From NCBI RefSeq assembly GCF_000093025.1, contig NC_014207.1:930001-994000 (forward strand): a DNA stretch of 64,000 bases, written 5' to 3'. The notes beneath the pieces are model-generated. The model made no database searches. It was not told where the DNA came from and saw only the letters and a program-made list of their open reading frames with translations. The DNA is from Methylotenera versatilis 301. GTDB lineage: Bacteria; Pseudomonadota; Gammaproteobacteria; Burkholderiales; Methylophilaceae. Each line of letters starts with the position of its first letter. Position 1 is the first letter of the stretch. Both the position numbers and the translations under genes were made by a program. Shown piece by piece: positions 37,600 to 48,621 of this stretch.

Positions 37600-40365
37600 T
37601 CAACCCTGCGGCGAAGTTCCAGTGAGTTTGAAATCCTTGATCCAGTTTAAAAAGACATCTACAGGCATTGGTTTAGCAATAAAATATCCTTGAGCTATAT
37701 CACAATCCAACTCACTGAGCTTATTCCATTGCGCCTGCGTTTCAACACCTTCAGCAACAACTTTTTTCCCAAGATCATGGGCAAGGTCAATGGTTGACTT
37801 CACTATCATTAATGATTCTTTACTTGTTAACATTGCACTTACAAAGGATTGATCAATTTTGAGGAATTGGATAGGTAATCTTTGAAGATAACTTAAAGAA
37901 GAGTAGCCAGTACCAAAATCATCGATGCTTAAATCGATACCTTCTTCACGGATGAGTTGTAGTACTTTTAAAGCTTGCTGGGCATCATCCATAATTGAAC
38001 TTTCGGTCACCTCAATCTCTAAAAGTCCCGTGCCTATACTCCACCTAGTTCTCAAGTGATGTATCCGCTCGACTAGGTCAATCTCATGCAGATTGCGTGC
38101 AGAAAGGTTGATTGCTATAGGCATTATGAATCCATTACGCTCCCAGTCATGTATCAACTGCACCGCGGTATTCATGACCCATTGGGTTAATGGCTTAATC
38201 AAGCCAATTTGCTCCGCAAGGGTAATAAATTCATATGGTGGGATCAATCCTCTTTCAGGGTGATTCCATCGAATCAGTCCCTCTACGCTACAAACTTGTC
38301 CAGTATCAAATGCTACTTTTGGCTGTAAGTAAAGCTCAAACTCTGTGTGATCTATGGCATGTCTGAGCTCTGCAGCCAATGCTGAGCGATGTGGCTTGTC
38401 TGAGTCCTGATTGTGATCAAACACAAAGTATCGTGCTCCTTTCTTCTTTGCAAGGCGAACAGCTAAGTCCACATGTCTATATAAGTCATGTGTAGTTAAG
38501 CCATGCTCAGGGAATATTGCAATGCCTATTTTTGCCGATATATCTAGGGGAATGTTTGATATAAAAATGGGTTGAACCAACACATTTTCAAGTTGATTTG
38601 CCAGATTGACCGTTTCCGCAGACGAACTATTTTTTAATAAAATTGCAAATTCATCGCCTCGAAGTCTTGCAATACAATCAGAATCTTTAACGACAAATTT
38701 TAAACGATTAGCAAACTCTTTTAGCACTTGGTCACCTCGGCCAAATCCCAGTGCATCATTAATTTCACTTAACTTCTCAATATTGATTTGCAAGAGAGAG
38801 AATGATTGATCTAAGGTCATTGAAGATTCAATTGCCTCAATCAACAACTGGGTAAATTGGGTTTCATTTGGCAATCCTGTCAATGCATCAAAATGGGTTA
38901 TTTTATGTAGCGCCAGCTCTGCTAACTTTCTATCTGTGATGTCAGAAATCAACACATAATAGCCATGAACATCCACCGTAGGAACATAGCTGACCATCTG
39001 CCACACATTTGGAAAAGGCTGCCAATCATAGCTAACTGATTTACCCAACAATGCTTGAACTATATTGGGAGCAGCAATCGCATAACGATCGTTTCCAAGC
39101 ACTTCACTTACGGTTAAACCTTCTATACTTTTATATTCTGGAGCGAATTGATTAAGGTACTTTTGATTAGCGTAGATATAACGCTCACTAGCATCCACAT
39201 AAGCGATTAATGCTGGAACATTGTCTGTAACACTTCGTAGTTTTTCTTCGCTTGCGTGCAACTCAAATGTTCGCTCTTGGATTTTTTTCTCAAGTTGATC
39301 ATTTTGTTCCTGAATTGACTTCTCGGCTTGGCGTTCCAAGGTCACGTCTCGGAAAACCAGCACCACTCCACTGATGTTTCCTGATAAATCGATAATGGGG
39401 GCGGCGCTATCTGCAATCGGATACATGTTACCGTTGCGCTGGATGAGTATCGTGTGATCTTCTAAATTCTGAACTTTTCGTGTTGTTATTGCTTTTGCTA
39501 TAGGAATCAAAGCAGGTTGCCCTGTTGATTCATTGATGATGTTAAAGACATCTTCAATAGGATGTCCTTTAGCCTCAGAAAATTGCCAACCAGTCAGCTT
39601 TTCTGAGACTGAATTCATATGGGTAATACGCCCCTCCGTGTCTGTTGCTAATACACCATCTCCAATGGAATGGAGCGTTGTAGAAAGCTTGTTTTCGCTT
39701 TCCGCCAATTTTTTACGACTTAAATAAATTTCCTTAAGTTGTCTTCGAATCAATAGAAAACTAAAAATCAAAAGTATTACAAGTGCAGTGCCGACAACTA
39801 CTCCTGATCTAAGAGTCAACTCTCTGGAGTGCTCTTGTTTGACAAGGCGCAGGTTCAGTAGTTGTCTTTCCTCTTGCTCCATATCAAGTAACAACTTATA
39901 CATTCGATCCCGTGTCTCTTGCAATTGGGTAGCCGCAATATAGGCAGTTGCAGCTTCCTTGCCTTGAGTTTTCATCAGCAATATCATGCGACTTGATATT
40001 ACCAAACGTTGATCAATCACTTCACGCAGCTGATGCCAAAGTAACTGCTGACGAGGGTTGTCAATGGTAGCTTGTTTGATTAAATGTAACGATTCTTCCC
40101 TAGATTGAATGCGTTTATCACGATCGGTGATGTGTTTTTTATCACCCGTAATTCTGTAACTTTGAGTGTTTAGTTCAATTAGATAAGTATCAGACTTGGC
40201 TTGCTCAACGTTGCTGAGCACTTCGTAAGTGTGCTGAACCATTTTCATAGCCATTGTTGCATTTTTAGATAGTTGCAAGGTAATAGCAATAAGCACAATT
40301 ACAACTAGACAGGCTACGGCAAACACCGATAGCAATTTACTATGAAATGAATAATAGTTTTTCAA
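37600..40365 (-). CDS. CHASE3-PAS-PAS-GGDEF-EAL protein, probable c-di-GMP phosphodiesterase
   Basis: 921 residues. Two membrane helices (about 10-30 and 187-206) flank a CHASE3 sensor; PAS domains at about 222-345 and 372-480; GGDEF domain about 482-645; EAL domain about 655-910. The cyclase domain is degenerate: GGDEF reads RGDEF (569-573), and the first metal-ligand aspartate is Asn in LQINIEKLSEIND, so it probably does not make c-di-GMP and may only bind GTP. The EAL domain keeps its acidic residues: EGLIRW (EAL to EGL), EVTES, IDDFGTGYSSLSYL and AEGVET. Start TTG without a clear ribosome site; an in-frame stop just upstream excludes a longer form. Confidence 0.88.
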   Translation of the reverse strand: MKNYYSFHSKLLSVFAVACLVVIVLIAITLQLSKNATMAMKMVQHTYEVLSNVEQAKSDTYLIELNTQSYRITGDKKHITDRDKRIQSREESLHLIKQATIDNPRQQLLWHQLREVIDQRLVISSRMILLMKTQGKEAATAYIAATQLQETRDRMYKLLLDMEQEERQLLNLRLVKQEHSRELTLRSGVVVGTALVILLIFSFLLIRRQLKEIYLSRKKLAESENKLSTTLHSIGDGVLATDTEGRITHMNSVSEKLTGWQFSEAKGHPIEDVFNIINESTGQPALIPIAKAITTRKVQNLEDHTILIQRNGNMYPIADSAAPIIDLSGNISGVVLVFRDVTLERQAEKSIQEQNDQLEKKIQERTFELHASEEKLRSVTDNVPALIAYVDASERYIYANQKYLNQFAPEYKSIEGLTVSEVLGNDRYAIAAPNIVQALLGKSVSYDWQPFPNVWQMVSYVPTVDVHGYYVLISDITDRKLAELALHKITHFDALTGLPNETQFTQLLIEAIESSMTLDQSFSLLQINIEKLSEINDALGFGRGDQVLKEFANRLKFVVKDSDCIARLRGDEFAILLKNSSSAETVNLANQLENVLVQPIFISNIPLDISAKIGIAIFPEHGLTTHDLYRHVDLAVRLAKKKGARYFVFDHNQDSDKPHRSALAAELRHAIDHTEFELYLQPKVAFDTGQVCSVEGLIRWNHPERGLIPPYEFITLAEQIGLIKPLTQWVMNTAVQLIHDWERNGFIMPIAINLSARNLHEIDLVERIHHLRTRWSIGTGLLEIEVTESSIMDDAQQALKVLQLIREEGIDLSIDDFGTGYSSLSYLQRLPIQFLKIDQSFVSAMLTSKESLMIVKSTIDLAHDLGKKVVAEGVETQAQWNKLSELDCDIAQGYFIAKPMPVDVFLNWIKDFKLTGTSPQG

Positions 40366-40914
40366 CGCTATTTGTTCATTAGATGATTGGTCAAGAGCGC
40401 TTTACTTCGAGATTTAGTGTGGTGAACTTGAGGTTGTGATATTTTCATACTGAAAAGCTGCCTGAACATAGTTGCTACCTCCGTAAAAGGATAATTTTCG
40501 TTCAATACCGCTTTTAGCGTAAATCGCTGACGGTACATTTAACGAGGCAGGTTCAGGACCTCAGAATATGGTGCCGGGTTCAGTGGGCAGCCACAACAGT
40601 ATTAGTCAAATAATTCACTAATTATGTATCAATATACCTGATGTAGATAAAAATTTAAACCGTAAAAAGAATTGATCTTACAGCTTAATTTCAAAGTTAA
40701 GAGTTTCATTAGCATGCACAAGAATAGTCATTAGTTCATTCAATTTTAGATTTTGGTCGCTTGCTCTTTAACGCAACAGCTTCATTGTGGCATCTTCTCC
40801 AATCTGCTCTAACTGCGATGCGAAAATTCTAAAATATCACCCTCTAAATCTCTTGCAATGAAAAATATAAAGAATACTATTATCGAAACATTAACGAATA
40901 AAAAATGGGGAAAT
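40366..40914. other. Long intergenic region upstream of the ANTAR gene
   Basis: No gene supported. It holds the left copy of the ~156-bp inverted repeat and 250-300 bp of AT-rich sequence between the repeat and the ANTAR gene, which must contain that gene's promoter; the divergent promoter of the CHASE3 gene is at the other end. Confidence 0.6.
40450..40605 (+). repeat. ~156-bp repeat, left copy (inverted relative to 42172-42328)
   Basis: By eye about 85% identical to the reverse complement of 42172-42328, with conserved blocks AAAGCTGCCTGAACATAGTT, TTAGCGTAAATCGCTGACGG, AACGAGGCA, GTTCAGGACCTCAG, and GTTCAGTGGGC. The element is partly self-complementary: its ends GCTGCC-TGAAC and GTTCAGTGGGCAGC can pair, and AATACCG...AGCG-TAAAT-CGCT...CGGTA forms an inner hairpin. 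No open reading frame runs through it. It looks like a MITE-like or structured-RNA element; identity unknown. Confidence 0.8.
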
Positions 40915-42096
40915 ATGATGGGTAATGTTCATGAGGAAGAATATAAGGCGTTAAGACTGGAAGCTACTATGCGTCTTGACCAGCTTCAATATCCACATAT
41001 GGATACATTACCTACTGATGTTCCAGGCTTGCTACATGATTTACAAGTACACAAAATTGAATTGGAAATGCAGAATGATCAGTTGCAGAGGGCTAATTTA
41101 GCACTGGAAGAATCTAGTCAGCGTTACAGAGATCGCTATGATTTTGCCCCCATTGGTTACTTCTCTATTAGTGATCAAGGTTTAATCACTGAGTTCAATC
41201 GCAAAGCTGCTTCAATGTTTGGCTTAAAGCATAATAAGCTTAATCAATACCGCTTTGCACAATTTGTTGACGACAGTGATAAAAGCCGCTGGCAGGACTT
41301 ATTTTTAGGGATAAAAAAACAAGAGCACGGTGAAGAGCTACTTTGTGACGTTAAATTAATCAACATTGATGGTATAAGTTTCCATGCAAGTATCAATTGC
41401 CTGCGGATGAATGATGATGTTAAAACAGAGATATTACGCCTAGCTGTCATTGATATTACTGATAAAAAAGTGGCTATAGAAAAGCAGCAAGCCTTAGACG
41501 AACAGCATCAGGAAATATTAGACTCATCCATGAATGGCTTTTGGATAGTAGATTTAAATGGCCGATTTTTAGAGGTAAATGCTACTTACTGCAAAATGAG
41601 CGGTTATGCCCTAACTGAACTTTTGACCATGAAAATTTCTGATATTGAAGCGATTGAATCTGTTAGAGATACCGTGACACATATCAAAAAAGTGATCTCA
41701 ATCGGTCAGGATCAATTTGAATCAAAACATCGACGTAAAGATGGAAGCTTATTTGATGTCAGAATAAAAGCTCAGATTATGCATAGTGAAGGTGGTCGAC
41801 TCGCAGTTTTCTTGCAGGATATCTCATCAATTAAGGCGATTACCGAACAAGTAGAGGCGCTGCAACAAGAGCAACAAGTGATGGAAGGAACAACACAGCA
41901 GTTGCAGACTGCACTTGATTCTGAGCGTAGTTTAAGTGTTGCTGTTGGCATTGTTATGGGGCAGCAGCAGGTTGGTAAAGATGCCGCCATGAAGTTGTTA
42001 CGTAAAAGAGCGCGTGACCAAAATCTGAAATTGAATGATCTTGCAACTATCCTCGTCTGCGCTCGGGAAACCTTAAATTTCGAAATTAAACTATAA
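40915..42096 (+). CDS. PAS-PAS-ANTAR protein (probable RNA-binding antiterminator)
   Basis: About 393 residues: a helical start, PAS 1 (about 70-190, RYDFAPIGYFSISDQGLITEFN), PAS 2 (about 205-320, ILDSSMNGFWIVDLNGRFLEVN), a coiled linker rich in Gln and Glu, and a C-terminal ANTAR domain (about the last 60 residues, SERSLSVAVGIVMGQQQVG then MKLLRKRARDQNLKLNDLA). ANTAR proteins bind paired hairpins in leader RNA and block termination. A one-protein sensor-antiterminator of this layout would link a PAS signal directly to transcript elongation. GGGG before the ATG pair at 40915/40918 favours this start over the ATG at 40858. Imperfect inverted ~156-bp repeats bracket the gene. Confidence 0.88.
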   Translation: MMGNVHEEEYKALRLEATMRLDQLQYPHMDTLPTDVPGLLHDLQVHKIELEMQNDQLQRANLALEESSQRYRDRYDFAPIGYFSISDQGLITEFNRKAASMFGLKHNKLNQYRFAQFVDDSDKSRWQDLFLGIKKQEHGEELLCDVKLINIDGISFHASINCLRMNDDVKTEILRLAVIDITDKKVAIEKQQALDEQHQEILDSSMNGFWIVDLNGRFLEVNATYCKMSGYALTELLTMKISDIEAIESVRDTVTHIKKVISIGQDQFESKHRRKDGSLFDVRIKAQIMHSEGGRLAVFLQDISSIKAITEQVEALQQEQQVMEGTTQQLQTALDSERSLSVAVGIVMGQQQVGKDAAMKLLRKRARDQNLKLNDLATILVCARETLNFEIKL

Positions 42097-42548
42097 ATCC
42101 CATTCTTTTCAAGAGTTCTATTTTTAAAGGCATCGTATATCGTTATATGCATTAGTGCCTTGTTTGATTAACAACACTATTGTGGATGCCCACTGAACTC
42201 GGCACCATCACCCTGAGGTCCTGAACTTGCCTCGTTAAAAATACCGTCAGCGATTTACGCTAACAGCGGTATTAGACGAAAATTTTCCTTTAATGGAAGG
42301 TGGCAACTATGTTCAGGCAGCTTTTTAGTTTTTCTGCTTTTTTCAGCCCAATCTCCTTTTCCACACGACTCAACAGAGTTGGTGTGTTTCTTCGCTCTAA
42401 ATTCGCAGCTGTATCCTCCGGATTATTACTTACGCCCATACCCAGAAGTATCCCAAGCCATTTAAACACGCTCTTATCACTAAGCATAATGAAGCTAAGT
42501 TTTACCGCTTTGTATAAAAACAAACTTATCTAACGAAAGTAGAAAATC
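42097..42548. other. Intergenic region between the ANTAR gene and the Aer-like receptor
   Basis: Contains the right repeat copy. From the repeat to 42523 a leftward frame could encode 77 residues ending inside the repeat (KSCLNIVATFH); the left repeat encodes the same KSCLNIVAT in its equivalent frame, so this may be the relic of a gene end carried by the element. There is no ribosome site or recognisable family, so I do not call it as a gene. The receptor's promoter must also be here. Confidence 0.5.
42172..42328 (-). repeat. ~156-bp repeat, right copy (inverted relative to 40450-40605)
   Basis: Reverse-complement partner of the left copy, with about twenty differences including two one-base gaps by eye. 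The AT-rich flanks (TTGATTA against TAGTCAAA) continue a weak match a few bases inward. No target-site duplication is visible outside the pair. The inner hairpin is better conserved here: AATACCG pairs with CGGTATT around AGCG/CGCT. Confidence 0.8.
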
Positions 42549-45500
42549 ATGAAAATCAATATGCCAATCACGAACACTGAAATTATCTTTGATGATAGTC
42601 AGTTTATGCTAACAAAAACAGATACTAAGGGTGTTATCACCTATGCTAACCAAGATTTTATAAAAGTCAGTGGATTCAGTGAGTCTGAACTTGTAGGTTC
42701 AAGTCACAACATGGTGCGTCATCCAGATATGCCTACAGAGGCATTTGAGGATATGTGGCGAAATCTAAAAGCTAATAAACCATGGACTGGAATGGTTAAG
42801 AACCGAACTAAGACGGGTGATTTTTATTGGGTTATCGCCAATGCTGCACCTATTATTGAAAATGGTCAGGTTACCGGCTATCTTTCAGCCCGCAGGAAAC
42901 CCAGCCGAGAGCAAGTGAAACAAGCAACAGACGCTTACCATCAGTTTAAATCTGGTAATGCTAACGGAATGCAAATAAGCGAAGGTCTAGTTGTAAAAAA
43001 CACCCTCTTAAACAGACTGAGAAATAAAACCCATAATATTAGCCTGTCGCAACGATTGACAGGGCTTGTAGCACTGGCATCGCTATCCATGGCTTTGCAA
43101 GCCGGATTGACAATATATATAGATGCGGCCAACAAATTATGGTTTATATACGGCATACCAGCGGTCACTGCATTGTTATTATTTTGGCTAGTCAGCAAGT
43201 TAACTTCATCGATCAAAATCCCATTAAAAACATCGATGCAAATGTTTGAACAAATCGCAGCTAATAAATTGGATTCTGATATTGAAGTTCAAGGGAATAA
43301 TGAAGTCAGCCAACTCTTACGCGGCATCAAGGCGATGCAAACCTTGCTTAGTGCTAACGAGAATGCAGAAAAAGAGTTAGCATTTAAAGTAAAAGAACAG
43401 TCTACTCAATATGAGAACCAGTTAGCCGCAATCAATAAATCTACTGGTGTGATTGAATTTAGCATGGACGGCCAAGTCATCGCGGCCAATGAAATCTTCT
43501 TGAATGCACTCGGCTACAGTCGAGAGGAAGCTATAGGGCAGCAACACAGCACTTTTGTCGAACCAGAATATAAAACCAGTGCGGAATACAAAGCGTTTTG
43601 GCAGAAACTCAATAGTGGAGAGTCTATTTCAGGCCAATTTTTACGCCTTGGCAAAGGCGGCAAAGAAATCTGGCTTGACGCTTCATACAACCCGATTTTA
43701 GGCGTTACAGGCAAGCCATACAAAGTAGTCAAATATGCAACCGATATTACCGAACAAAAACTTAAAAATGCCGACTTTGAAGGGCAGATCAGCGCGATTG
43801 GTAAATCTCAAGGCGTGATAGAAATCAGTTTGAGCGGCATGATTATTAAAGTCAACCAAGTGTATCTTGACATGTTAGGTTACAAAGAGGCCGAACTACT
43901 TGGCAAGCACGTCAGCATGGTACTAGACCCAACTTTCGCCAAGAGCGATGCCTATAAAACACTATGGGATAAGCTGGTCAATGGCGGTACAGATTCAGGT
44001 CAATACAAACGGATTGCTAAAGATGGTAAAGAAGTCTGGATACAAGCCTCTTACAACCCAATCTACGACCTGAAAGGTAAACCATTTAAAGTCGTCAATT
44101 ACACCATGGATATCACCGCACAAAAACTGCAAGCAGCCGATAATGCTGGGCAAATTTCGGGTATCCAAAAAACACAAGGCGTAGTTGAGTTTGACCTCAC
44201 AGGTAAAATTCTGTCAGTCAACGACATCTTTGTAAGTATGTCTGGCTACACCGAAAATCAAATCGTTGGTAATCATCACAGCATGTTTGTAGAGCCTGCT
44301 TATCGTAACAGCCATGAGTACAAAGCATTCTGGGAGTCACTCGCCCGAGGTGAGGCGCAAGTTGGTCAATTCAAGCGCATTGGTAAAGGCAGCACGGTAG
44401 TTTGGATGCAAGCGATTTACAACCCGATTCTAGATATGAATGGTAAACCTTTTAAAGTGGTGAAATATGCCACAGACATCACAGAGCAACACAATAGCGT
44501 AGAAACACTCGCCAACGCTGTAGAAGAGACTCAAGGTATCATTGAAAGTGCAAAATCTGGTGATTTAAGAAGCCGTGTGTCATTAGATGGCAAAACAGGT
44601 GCGATTGCCAGCCTTTGCCATGGTGTGAATGCCCTCATGGATAAAATGACCGAAGTCATAGTTCAGGTACGAGAAGCCGGTGAAACCATCAATACTGCCG
44701 CAGGTGAAATATCATCTGGTAATAATGACCTATCACAACGCACAGAGCAACAAGCCTCAAGCTTAGAAGAAACCGCAGCCAGCATGGAAGAGCTCGCTTC
44801 AACCGTTAAACAAAATGCTGAGAACGCTAAACAAGCCAACCAGCTTGCTGTCTCCGCTTCAGGAGTCGCAGTTAAAGGTGGTGAAGTAGTCGGTCAAGTC
44901 GTTAGCACCATGAGTGCCATCAACAGCAGTGCTAAAAAGATTGAAGACATTATTTCAGTCATTGACGGTATAGCCTTCCAAACCAACATTCTTGCTCTAA
45001 ATGCTGCTGTTGAGGCGGCCCGTGCAGGTGAGCAAGGTCGAGGCTTTGCCGTAGTGGCAGGTGAAGTACGTAACTTAGCGCAACGATCAGCTAGTGCAGC
45101 AAAAGAGATTAAAGAACTCATCACTGATTCAGTAAGTAAAACAGCCGAAGGTACTACCCAAGTAGAACAAGCTGGTAAAACCATGCAAGAGATTGTGTCA
45201 TCAGTACAACGGGTGACTGACATCATGGCTGAAATTACAGCCGCATCTGTAGAACAAAGTACGGGTATAGATCAGGTCAACCAAGCCGTCACAAGTATGG
45301 ACGAAGTAACGCAACAAAATGCTGCCTTAGTAGAGGAAGCAGCAGCCGCAGCTGAATCACTAGTCGATCAAGCGGTCGGTCTGATGGACGTTGTAAGTGC
45401 TTTTCAATTAAACAGAAGCGCTTCGATTTCTGCACCTAAATCTGCAAGTAAAAATACAGTGCGTTTAGTCTCATCAAGTCCAATGGCTAGGTTAGCGCCA

Positions 45501-45693: not shown

Positions 45694-48621
45694 GTGGTGA
45701 ATACAAAAAATCAATTAGTATCACCGTCATCGGAAAAGCCTACCGAAGTCGATCAGAAGTCAAAAAGAGTTTTTCCCATTGTTGGAATTGGTGCTTCAGC
45801 TGGCGGTTTAGAGGCTTTTGAAGATTTTTTCCGTCACTGCGATCCCGATATAGGGCTTGCATTTGTTTTAGTGCCTCATCTTGATCCTAGCCATGTGAGC
45901 ATGCTCACCGAAATCTTACAACGCAGCACTAAAATGCCTGTGATAGAGGCGCAAGATCAGACTAAGGTTGAAGCTAACCGCGTGTATATCATCCCGCCAA
46001 ATCGTGAAATGGCGATCATTCACGGCAAGTTGCAACTGAGTGTACCAACAGTTTCTCATGGGCAGCGTATGCCGATAGATGGTTTTTTAAGATCACTGGC
46101 TGAAGACCAAAATGAAAATGCGATAGGTATCATTCTTTCAGGCACTGGCAGTGATGGCACCTTGGGTTTGCGTGCTGTTTATGGCGCAGGCGGCAATTGC
46201 TTTGTACAAGAGCCAGCGACAGCTAAATATGATGGTATGCCAACCAGTGCAATTAAAGCGGGTTATGTAACAAAAGTTTTACCCGTCGCAAACATGCCTG
46301 AAGCGCTGCAAGCCGGTGCTAACTCCTTCAATATACTCAGTGAGATAAACACCGAAACTAAGAAAACCCATGGGGTTAGTCATATTTTGATGCAGTTGCG
46401 CACTATCACTGGGCATGACTTTTCGCTTTACAAACAAAGCACTGTGATTCGACGTATCGAACGACGCATGTTAAAGCACGATATTACAGATATTGAAATT
46501 TATGCGCGTTATTTGAAAGAGTTTCCAGCTGAAGCACATATTCTATTCAAAGAATTACTCATCAATGTCACCAGTTTCTTTCGCGATACAGAAGCTTTTC
46601 TGGTGTTAGAAAATGATGTTTTGCCGCAGCTATGCTTAAACAAGTCTGATGAAGATAATTTCCGTGTTTGGGTGCCTGGTTGCGCTTCTGGTGAAGAAGC
46701 ATATTCAATTGCTATTTTACTTAGCGAGCTGATGGATAAAACCCAACAAAATTTCAAAGTACAGATTTATGCTAGCGATCTGGATGATGATGCCATTGCA
46801 ACGGCCAGAGCAGGCTTATACCCAATTAACATCAGTCAAGATCTCACACCAGAACGCTTACGCCGCTTTTTTACTAAAGAAATAACTGGCTATAAAGTTA
46901 AAAAAGAGATTCGTGACATGGTGGTTTTCGCGATTCAAAACGTCATTAAAGACCCCCCATTTACCAAACTTGATTTACTCTCATGCCGTAACCTGATGAT
47001 TTATCTCGGCGCAGAGTTACAAAATAGGCTAATGCCAACATTTCATTACGCACTAAAACCTAATGGGGTGTTGATGGTGTCACCATCAGAGGGAATTGGT
47101 AGCTTTACCTCGTTATTTTCACCGATTAGTCGCAAGTGGAAAATCTACCGTGCTATACATAATCTGAGTTCACCAACCTCAAGATTTAATATTCCGACCA
47201 AAGTTCCTACAACAAATGACAGCAAGACACCTGAGAAAGCGATAAAACAACCTATGGAAAATAGTTTGGCTGAAATAAGCCGTCGTCTGTTGATGCAATA
47301 CTTTGCTCCGGCATCTGTATTTACCGACCTAAAAGGCAATATTCTTTATGTACATGGTGATACGGGAAAATATCTGCGTCCTGCTCAGGGACAAGCTAGT
47401 TTAAATGTCATTGAAATGGCACGCGAGGGTATGGAAATACAGCTACGTGCAGCTATCCACTCGGCAAGCATCGAAAATAAGCCAACACTCAATCATGAAA
47501 TGCAAGTCAAGACCAATGGTGGTTTTACCACGGTTAGTTTAAGTGTACGACAAGTTAACTATGGTTCAGCTGATAAGCAGGCATTTCTATTGGTGAGCTT
47601 TCAGGATGTAGTGACGCCTTCTAATCAAACAAAACGTAAGGTTTCTAGCAAGCCGGAAGAGCTAAAACGCTTAGAGGAGCTTGAAAATGATTTGTTATAC
47701 CTAAAAGAAAACCACCAAGTTCTCATCGAAGAGCAGCAAGCTACCAACGAAGAGCTTAAGTCCGCCAACGAAGAGCTACAATCGACCAATGAGGAAATGC
47801 AGTCTAGCAACGAAGAGTTAGAAACCTCGAAAGAAGAGTTGCAGTCGATTAATGAGGAGCTCATTACGGTCAATTCTGAGCTGCAGACAAAAATGGATCA
47901 GTTGTCTGAAATGCAGAGCGATATGAAGAATCTATTGGAAAGCACAGATATTGGTATCGTTTTTTTAGATGAACACTTAATGATTCGCAGCTTTACTCGG
48001 GAAGCAGTTCGCATCTATCGATTAGTACCATCGGATATAGGCAGACCACTTTCTGATATTCGATCCATTTCTGACCAAGCTGACAATCTTATCGAGGCAG
48101 CTAAAAACGTATTGGACTCACTGATTCCTTTTGAAACCGAGTTACATGTTCTCAATAACTGGATATTGGTGCGCATTCAGCCTTACCGCACTACAGACAA
48201 CTTTATTAATGGCGTTGTTTTAACCTTTACTGACATCACGGCCCGTATTAAGAGTGCTACTACCCAAGAAGCACTAGACTTGGCCGAGGGCATCGTTAAC
48301 ACTGTACGTGAACCACTGATAGTACTAGATGCCAAAATGAATGTGATTTCCATTAATACTGCTTTTGAAACAAGCTTTCAAGTGAGTCGAGAAGATGCCA
48401 TTGGCAGAAAAATTTATCAGTTGGGAAACTTTCAGTGGGATATACCTGCCTTACGTAAATTACTAGAAGAGTTATTAATTACCAGCGACTCTATAGACGA
48501 CTACGTAGTACATCACGACTTTCCTGGAATTGGCCACAAAACTATTCGAATTAAGGCACGCCGCTTAGTAACCAAGATGATTGAAACACAGTTGATATTA
48601 CTGTCATTTGAGATCAATTAA
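45694..48621 (+). CDS. CheB-CheR-PAS hybrid chemotaxis protein
   Basis: 975 residues. A CheB methylesterase domain without its receiver (about 28-215; catalytic Ser in GIGASAGGLEAF, His in VPHLDPSH, Asp in LSGTGSDGTLGL); a CheR methyltransferase domain (about 225-490; INVTSFFRD, SAM site VWVPGCASGEEAYSIA, CRNLMIYL); a long coiled coil of repeated Glu-Leu-x-Ser-x-Asn-Glu units (about 665-745); then two PAS domains (about 745-860 and 870-975). It can both methylate and demethylate receptors. Such hybrids often carry a C-terminal kinase; here the protein ends with PAS. Start GTG, GAGAG just upstream; the Aer-like receptor 139 bp upstream is a likely partner. Confidence 0.93.
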   Translation: MVNTKNQLVSPSSEKPTEVDQKSKRVFPIVGIGASAGGLEAFEDFFRHCDPDIGLAFVLVPHLDPSHVSMLTEILQRSTKMPVIEAQDQTKVEANRVYIIPPNREMAIIHGKLQLSVPTVSHGQRMPIDGFLRSLAEDQNENAIGIILSGTGSDGTLGLRAVYGAGGNCFVQEPATAKYDGMPTSAIKAGYVTKVLPVANMPEALQAGANSFNILSEINTETKKTHGVSHILMQLRTITGHDFSLYKQSTVIRRIERRMLKHDITDIEIYARYLKEFPAEAHILFKELLINVTSFFRDTEAFLVLENDVLPQLCLNKSDEDNFRVWVPGCASGEEAYSIAILLSELMDKTQQNFKVQIYASDLDDDAIATARAGLYPINISQDLTPERLRRFFTKEITGYKVKKEIRDMVVFAIQNVIKDPPFTKLDLLSCRNLMIYLGAELQNRLMPTFHYALKPNGVLMVSPSEGIGSFTSLFSPISRKWKIYRAIHNLSSPTSRFNIPTKVPTTNDSKTPEKAIKQPMENSLAEISRRLLMQYFAPASVFTDLKGNILYVHGDTGKYLRPAQGQASLNVIEMAREGMEIQLRAAIHSASIENKPTLNHEMQVKTNGGFTTVSLSVRQVNYGSADKQAFLLVSFQDVVTPSNQTKRKVSSKPEELKRLEELENDLLYLKENHQVLIEEQQATNEELKSANEELQSTNEEMQSSNEELETSKEELQSINEELITVNSELQTKMDQLSEMQSDMKNLLESTDIGIVFLDEHLMIRSFTREAVRIYRLVPSDIGRPLSDIRSISDQADNLIEAAKNVLDSLIPFETELHVLNNWILVRIQPYRTTDNFINGVVLTFTDITARIKSATTQEALDLAEGIVNTVREPLIVLDAKMNVISINTAFETSFQVSREDAIGRKIYQLGNFQWDIPALRKLLEELLITSDSIDDYVVHHDFPGIGHKTIRIKARRLVTKMIETQLILLSFEIN

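Follow-up and report, generated by a model that had tools for sequence, protein, structure and literature searches.

Inverted repeats around a PAS-PAS-ANTAR gene of Methylotenera versatilis 301 as two candidate ANTAR-controlled RNA leaders of flanking signalling genes

The window analysed here is a stretch of 64,000 nt of the Methylotenera versatilis 301 genome (NC_014207.1, positions 930,001 to 994,000), and all positions below are counted from its first nucleotide. It contains a PAS-PAS-ANTAR gene with one copy of an inverted repeat on either side, and each copy lies 5' of a signalling gene. The features are listed below, where H1 and H2 denote the two predicted hairpins of the RNA core and ORF an open reading frame.

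37600-40365, minus strand: CHASE3-PAS-PAS-GGDEF-EAL gene, the proposed left target (ORF, TTG start as predicted; Pfam)
40368-40469, minus strand: left leader ORF, 33 aa, its stop codon 2 nt ahead of the TTG of the next gene
40467-40469, minus strand: putative start codon of the left RNA; loop 2 CCUGAAC pairs GUUCAGG
40459-40533, minus strand: 3' part of the left RNA with the ribosome-binding site, counterpart of 42244-42318 (89% identical)
40534-40601, minus strand: predicted left RNA core, H1 and H2 (covariance model, 45.0 bits, E 2.8e-10)
40681-40809, minus strand: decayed inverted ANTAR C-terminal remnant (77% amino acid identity over 43 residues; ANTAR part 76% identical at the nucleotide level)
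40858-42096, plus strand: PAS-PAS-ANTAR regulator gene, 412 aa (ORF; Pfam PAS, ANTAR; on the RNA-linked side of the 100/100 branch described below)
42176-42243, plus strand: predicted right RNA core, H1 and H2 (50.1 bits, E 1.2e-11, by a covariance model from which the window copies had been left out)
about 42183-42207, plus strand: predicted hairpin H1 of the right RNA, with a 10-nt loop at 42191-42200
42215-42233, plus strand: predicted hairpin H2 of the right RNA, with a 9-nt loop at 42220-42228
42244-42318, plus strand: 3' part of the right RNA, with further hairpins (89% identical to the left copy)
42295-42300, plus strand: putative ribosome-binding site of the right RNA, GGAAGG
42309-42311, plus strand: putative start codon of the right RNA, with surroundings that complement loop 2 (CCUGAAC pairs GUUCAGG)
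42309-42533, plus strand: right leader ORF, 74 aa, its stop codon beginning 18 nt ahead of the chemoreceptor start codon
42549-45554, plus strand: gene for a PAS-repeat methyl-accepting chemotaxis protein, the proposed right target (ORF; Pfam PAS, MCPsignal)

Three PAS-encoding repeats occur at exact 366-nt spacing within the chemoreceptor gene (43632-44489). Immediately 3' of this gene lies a CheB-CheR-PAS fusion gene (45694-48621; Pfam), at which the covariance model detected no 9-nt-loop RNA.

The original prediction described the repeats as inverted copies of about 156 nt enclosing exactly one gene. The repeats are real: blastn aligned the left and right copies as reverse complements at 88% identity over 155 nt (E 1.7e-49), with arm pairs that are 94% (40449-40480/42298-42329) or 89% identical (40480-40564/42213-42297 and 40568-40603/42173-42208, each). 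The enclosed PAS-PAS-ANTAR gene was confirmed by Pfam, but the inverted ANTAR remnant, which is enclosed as well, had been overlooked. Homology between the two sides continues inward past the repeat (182-nt arms, 71% identity; local alignment score 426 compared to a maximum of 66 among 200 mononucleotide shuffles) because this remnant, with one in-frame stop and a second further upstream, sits beside the left copy. Since a decayed inverted ANTAR end adjoins the left copy, a longer segment was duplicated in inverse orientation, and the repeat is its outer part. The duplicated unit consists of the ANTAR 3' end, the spacer, the element and the start of the leader ORF, and the bracketing of the gene by repeats is a by-product of the head-to-head duplication of this ANTAR-plus-leader unit. 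Left-right identity is 87% and 89% for the two parts of the element, 76% for the ANTAR part, 67% for the spacer and 46% for the leader ORF past its first codons; the element was retained while the adjoining parts of the duplicate drifted.

One gene flanked by inverted copies is also the layout of a MITE-like mobile cassette carrying a regulator, which had been put forward as one reading of the locus. We rejected this reading as extremely improbable. A blastn search of the 3.06-Mb genome did not find many unrelated copies of the repeat; it holds two long copies only, and the remaining matches at E<=1 are of 24 and 22 nt. Among 187 genomes of the family, one other long copy was found (G143, 74%), again ahead of a chemoreceptor gene, and the rest of the matches were short (<=41 nt). 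There are thus no dispersed copies, the inward homology runs into the ANTAR remnant, and relatives share the gene order. A protein search of the genome contigs returned three remote PAS proteins and was uninformative.

The second reading offered for the repeats was a structured RNA placed before both flanking signalling genes. The folding z-scores were -4.26 for the right copy in the ANTAR sense and -2.08 for the left copy in its own sense, with -3.94 and -1.13, respectively, on the opposite strands. Since the right copy folds well on its opposite strand too, single-sequence folding alone cannot fix the strand. Rfam 15 at the gathering score matched no family in the window between 40200 and 42600, where the only match was a chance snoRNA (E 1.8), and at the loci of seven relatives it returned one tRNA and no match at the element.

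The orientation of the element is repeated in relatives. Behind the nearest ANTARs there is a recurrent order of sensor, receiver-ANTAR gene, a gap of about 300-720 nt, and then GGDEF-EAL and chemotaxis genes. The gaps contain the element in the same orientation, 3' of the receiver-ANTAR gene and 5' of GGDEF-EAL, CheW or chemoreceptor genes. The complete order (PAS histidine kinase, GGDEF-EAL, CheW, chemoreceptor) is present in G148 and G145; at other loci some of the genes are absent or contig ends intervene. The ANTAR gene and the element of G143 are on separate contigs, so their adjacency is presumptive. The contig ends at this ANTAR-RNA gap (L067 1-111, L068 3600-3692) have an inverted GGGGCTGTCCTAGATAA-type sequence in common, the trace expected of an insertion sequence lying between ANTAR and RNA.

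A covariance model of the two hairpins was built from eight relatives, with the window copies excluded. It detected exactly the two copies in the window at E<=1 and 15 places in 10 of the 187 family genomes at E<=0.01. Rebuilt from 13 sequences with the window copies included, the model detected 17 places in 10 genomes at E<=0.001. Weak matches (E 0.016-0.065) in G063, G068 and G080 lie 5' of chemoreceptor or CheW genes facing the ANTAR gene and are followed by the same AUGUUCGGG start; these were accepted on position and start region, their scores being no better than that of a match inside a GGDEF sequence of G148 (E 0.05). The RNA was found at E<=0.001 in 9 of the 12 genomes with a close ANTAR (score at least 45 bits) compared to 1 of 175 others (Fisher 3.4e-12), and in 12 of 12 once the weak matches were counted. 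The order (399 genomes) and the class (369 genomes) were searched with Infernal's stricter filters, under which weak matches may be lost. Apart from the genome of the window, the order yielded three borderline matches (E 0.0016-0.0097); all are in open frames with no ANTAR seen alongside, and for this reason we took them to be chance. The class yielded one such match, in G596, a genome without ANTAR.

It is quite unlikely that the RNA is instead a switch for another ligand or protein, standing beside ANTAR genes only through operon history. G115 would fit such a switch: it has an RNA-like leader (E 6.8e-7 with model R2, 0.007 with model R1) without a close ANTAR, and its sole ANTAR, apparently NasT-like, is encoded elsewhere in the complete genome. 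The leader of G115 (L089 1501-1700) lies directly 5' of a solute-binding-PAS gene. The absence of the EutV pocket residues from the ANTAR clade described below would fit as well. The genome counts given above argue against it, as do the unlinked RNA copies at E<=0.001, which are confined to genomes with a clade ANTAR, G115 excepted. G147 and G148 each have an unlinked copy ahead of a CheW gene, and there the RNA also follows paralogous ANTARs, so that the pairing is repeated at two paralogous loci. The two alike loops, as in targets of dimers, are a further argument against another ligand. No RNA was seen at the clade ANTARs of G117 and G148:C12.

In the predicted fold, H1 has a UGCC/GGCA stem above a variable, mostly paired lower helix (CUUCUG/CAGAAG in G186, UUCAAG/CUUGAA in G046), and H2 has a GAGGC/GCCUC stem that is almost invariant. 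The two loops are alike and 9 nt long, apart from the 10-nt H1 loop in the window; position 1 is mostly C and position 4 mostly G, and one unlinked G034 site has CAUGCCCCC in both loops. At the paralog site G148:C67, H1 is absent in the model alignment. In 13 sequences, aligned by fitting to the covariance model, 92.0% of cells were paired compared to 85.2% in shuffles. Six pairs were changed on both sides (a number reached in 2 of 500 shuffles), with 13 such cells compared to 3.4, and the number of further pair types was within chance (74 of 500 shuffles). Covariation supports H1 only because H2 is nearly invariant. Together, the compensatory changes in H1 and the recovery of both window copies by the covariance model indicate that the element is a conserved structured RNA. 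The structured-RNA reading is largely supported by these comparisons, by where the element lies and by its association with one ANTAR clade.

The element has two adjacent stem-loops separated by a short linker, as expected of an ANTAR-target RNA. The canonical form of such a target was not found: none of 10 leaders scanned contained a pair of A1/G4 hexaloop hairpins with a linker of 2-25 nt.

Downstream of H2 there is a variable hairpin, then a hairpin with a purine-rich ribosome-binding site, and then a start codon. The start codon reads mostly AUGUUY and is complementary, together with its surroundings, to loop 2. At the ANTAR-linked site of G034 the start is GUG and loop 2 has CAC instead of CAU. 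Across 16 sites, pairing between loop 2 and its own start region scored 258 compared to a permuted mean of 224.6, and 3 of 5000 permutations were as high, a result inflated by related sites although one of two identical CheW sites had been dropped. Pairing at the start exceeded that at 95% of other positions in the same leader at 12 of the 16 sites, but not at the other four. In the unlinked copies of G147 and G148, the paired AUG is the start codon of CheW itself, with nine perfect pairs. When the loops were forced to be unpaired and the stems to form, the unpaired fraction of the start rose from 0.23 to 0.43 (mean of 13 sites), with a mean change of 0.01 elsewhere. The rise was from 0.22 to 0.56 in the right window copy and from 0.22 to 0.25 in the left, which is one of 5 of the 13 sites with a gain below 0.1 or a loss.

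The start codon opens a leader ORF of 33-108 codons at 13 sites beside an ANTAR gene or its operon. These ORFs vary from one lineage to another, and at 13 of 13 sites the position of the stop ranges from 46 nt ahead of the next gene to 35 nt into it. The junction is an ATGA overlap at five of the 13 sites, and at three the stop lies at most 5 nt before the next gene. The same pattern was seen at three sites beyond these 13: an ATGA overlap at G034:C25, read from the junction, a stop 4 nt ahead of the next gene at G034:C183, and at G147:C155 a leader ORF that overlaps the next gene if TTG is the start. The 14-aa ORF at G148:C67 falls short of CheW. Tandem 5- or 10-nt repeats were seen near the ends of some leader ORFs (L070 5487-5693, L074 5060-5095 and the L069 leader), with CAAGTCAACT 21 times in G148, CAAGG seven times in G046 and a few AAGTC in G147. 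A change in repeat copy number would shift the leader frame, and coupling could therefore be phase-variable.

An ANTAR-bound leader might act by transcription antitermination or by exposure of a Rho site rather than by release of the start codon. EutV and NasR have been proved to act by antitermination (PMC3369931). T-rich stretches lie 3' of the start region of the right window copy, and in a genus outside the family (f37) a GGGGU stretch that precedes T runs is a possible pairing partner of the loop strand (L134, L147), which suggests antitermination there. However, a simple scan of the sense strand of both window elements found no terminator, the paired segment in G147 and G148 is the start codon of CheW, and leader ORFs with ATGA overlaps indicate translation. 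We therefore consider this mode of action rather unlikely, and release of the start codon remains the reading that we develop below.

The ANTAR domain of the window protein (PF03861) scored 47.1 bits compared to a Pfam cut-off of 27.3. In four relatives scanned, the sensor matched PAS-HisKA_2 and HATPase, the latter below the Pfam cut-off in three, and the regulator was a receiver-ANTAR protein in three relatives (Pfam). The front of the window protein resembles the PAS part of the sensor (35% over residues 25-256 compared to G145), and its rear resembles the ANTAR end of the regulator. A fusion in which the kinase and the receiver were lost is therefore the simplest account, and the window protein seems to have arisen in this way.

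The ANTAR tree has a 100/100 branch that separates the RNA-linked ANTARs, together with those of G117 and G148:C12, from 12 NasT-like ANTARs. There was one label change beyond a single group, owing to G117, and G148:C12, where no RNA was seen, carried the RNA-adjacent label. Residue numbers, which follow EutV, were assigned from alignments, and contacts are those named in PMC8934654. The EutV-type contacts R142, K149, E160, Y164 and M172 are replaced in 16 of 16 family members of the clade, including the window protein. Position 142 is D, E, G or S, 147 is V or I, 149 is V, I or T, 160 is not E, 164 is not Y (F in four) and 172 is R; 143 is R and 177 mostly K. In contrast, R142, R147, K149, E160, Y164 and M172 are kept in 12 of 12 NasT-like ANTARs. 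R168 is present in all 28 ANTARs compared. In EutV, loop G4 is stacked on Y164 and the hexaloop is plugged by M172. Since these two residues read the hexaloop and are replaced in the clade, a different loop is expected. The replaced pocket could instead mean that the clade lost RNA binding.

Beyond the family, a search of 399 genomes of the order with the clade alignment found ANTARs in 50 genomes at E<=1e-8, NasT types included. Besides the own locus, 29 loci were fetched and 28 read; one NasT-type locus with 153 nt downstream was dropped. At 8 of the 28 loci, a hairpin whose 9-nt loop (such as CCAGACCCC) is closed by five or more pairs was found within 500 nt (200 shuffles: mean 0.2, maximum 2), with a pattern that was written after the loops had been inspected; no such hairpin was found within 500 nt at the other 20. 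Six of the eight loci belong to the f37 genus and the others to two further families. In a pocket listing that covered 21 of the 29 loci, the remainder being missed by its pattern, R172 and F164 occurred together in 20, and six of these, all hairpin-bearing, kept E160. A search with the f37 hairpin pattern in 13 chosen genomes gave 12 places in 9 genomes (one match in the reversed control), of which no fewer than two fall within coding frames and were taken as chance.

The next gene in the f37 genus belongs to the ODP family (L134, L141, L142, L146, L147 and L156; Pfam on two), and an ODP-family gene also follows the unlinked RNA of G034:C183. The ODP family is a di-iron oxygen-binding family. 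In G213, a 62-aa leader ORF 3' of the hairpin ends in TGATG at the apparent next start, and a second such hairpin lies ahead of a protoglobin-PAS gene. L118 2489-3262 also belongs to these recurring ODP and protoglobin neighbours of 9-nt-loop hairpins or of the RNA. The recurrence of such neighbours hints at an oxygen-related signal. In view of the antitermination-like pairing in f37, families may share the loop and still differ in output.

Taken together, we think it reasonably probable that the repeats are two RNA leaders whose start release by the ANTAR protein turns on the flanking genes. Each copy would be a cis-regulatory leader heading the message of the neighbouring signalling gene, with H1 and H2 and their alike loops 5' of the ribosome-binding site. 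When the regulator is absent, the loop-2 strand would pair with the start-codon region within a long helix, so that ribosomes could not start. Active ANTAR protein would bind both loops, hold H1 and H2 and free the start. Ribosomes would then translate the short leader ORF and, through coupling where stop and start codons overlap or lie close together, the gene behind it, which is GGDEF-EAL at the left copy and the chemoreceptor at the right. This switching may be performed in relatives by a PAS histidine kinase together with a receiver-ANTAR protein; in the window, kinase and receiver would have been lost and the PAS part joined straight to the ANTAR domain. The inverted duplication of ANTAR end and leader supplied each of the two targets with a leader of its own, and the second ANTAR copy decayed. 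The comparisons establish the duplication, the conserved RNA with its position and complementarity, the leader ORFs and the link to a single ANTAR clade; we infer protein binding, activation as the direction of control, coupling and the fusion history.

The element resembles the dual-hexaloop RNAs of EutV, NasR and AmiR (PMC3369931, PMC8934654) in having two hairpins side by side, joined by a short linker and similar in their loops, in a second hairpin that overlaps a competing helix, and in its linkage to an ANTAR regulator. It differs from them in loops of 9-10 nt whose first base is C rather than A and in a competing helix that includes the start codon and is followed by a leader ORF, and the clade differs from EutV in the replacement of pocket residues 142, 147, 149, 160, 164 and 172. 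The NasT-like ANTARs of the family likewise have their ANTAR domain in a receiver-type protein, but lie on the opposite side of the 100/100 branch and keep the pocket residues. PAL is a PAS-ANTAR-LOV photoreceptor, and it has sensor domains and an ANTAR domain in one protein, as proposed for the window protein.

Ramesh 2012 (PMC3369931) defines the dual hexaloop ANTAR-target RNA, and its supplementary legend includes one predicted match over the start of a chemoreceptor gene. The hexaloop is still treated as defining in PMC8164766, and PMC8934654 cuts the minimal motif to one hexaloop, notes that stem-loops of Mycobacterium depart from the dual motif in some cases and mentions a LOV-ANTAR protein of Nakamurella; PMC7496416 deals with RNA-binding residues of NasR. 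No report of this leader RNA was found among open-licence papers. Judged by sequence, the leader RNA and its clade are most likely a new form of ANTAR control that is unmatched in Rfam.

We lean, by a modest degree, towards a broader proposal of a second ANTAR-RNA code. Across several families of the order, a clade with M172R, Y164 changed to F or another residue and K149 changed to V, I or T would read hairpins whose 9-nt loops are mostly C-N-N-G-A-M-C-N-Y. In the family of the window it would prise loop 2 off the start codon and relay the signal to genes for c-di-GMP, chemotaxis and oxygen sensing (ODP, protoglobin) by way of leader ORFs that change fast and are coupled to these genes, and the window would represent a two-component version collapsed to a one-component protein over two divergent targets. 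ANTAR proteins are widespread, and their RNA targets have so far been sought with the A1/G4 hexaloop model. If the proposal is true, a replaced-pocket clade with a 9-nt-loop leader would explain why some ANTAR targets are missed. An RNA of about 70 nt and a domain of 68 residues would provide a compact model for joint protein-RNA divergence. In the organism, c-di-GMP and chemoreceptor genes would then be under translational control by PAS sensing, and a kinase-regulator pair would have been turned into a single protein.
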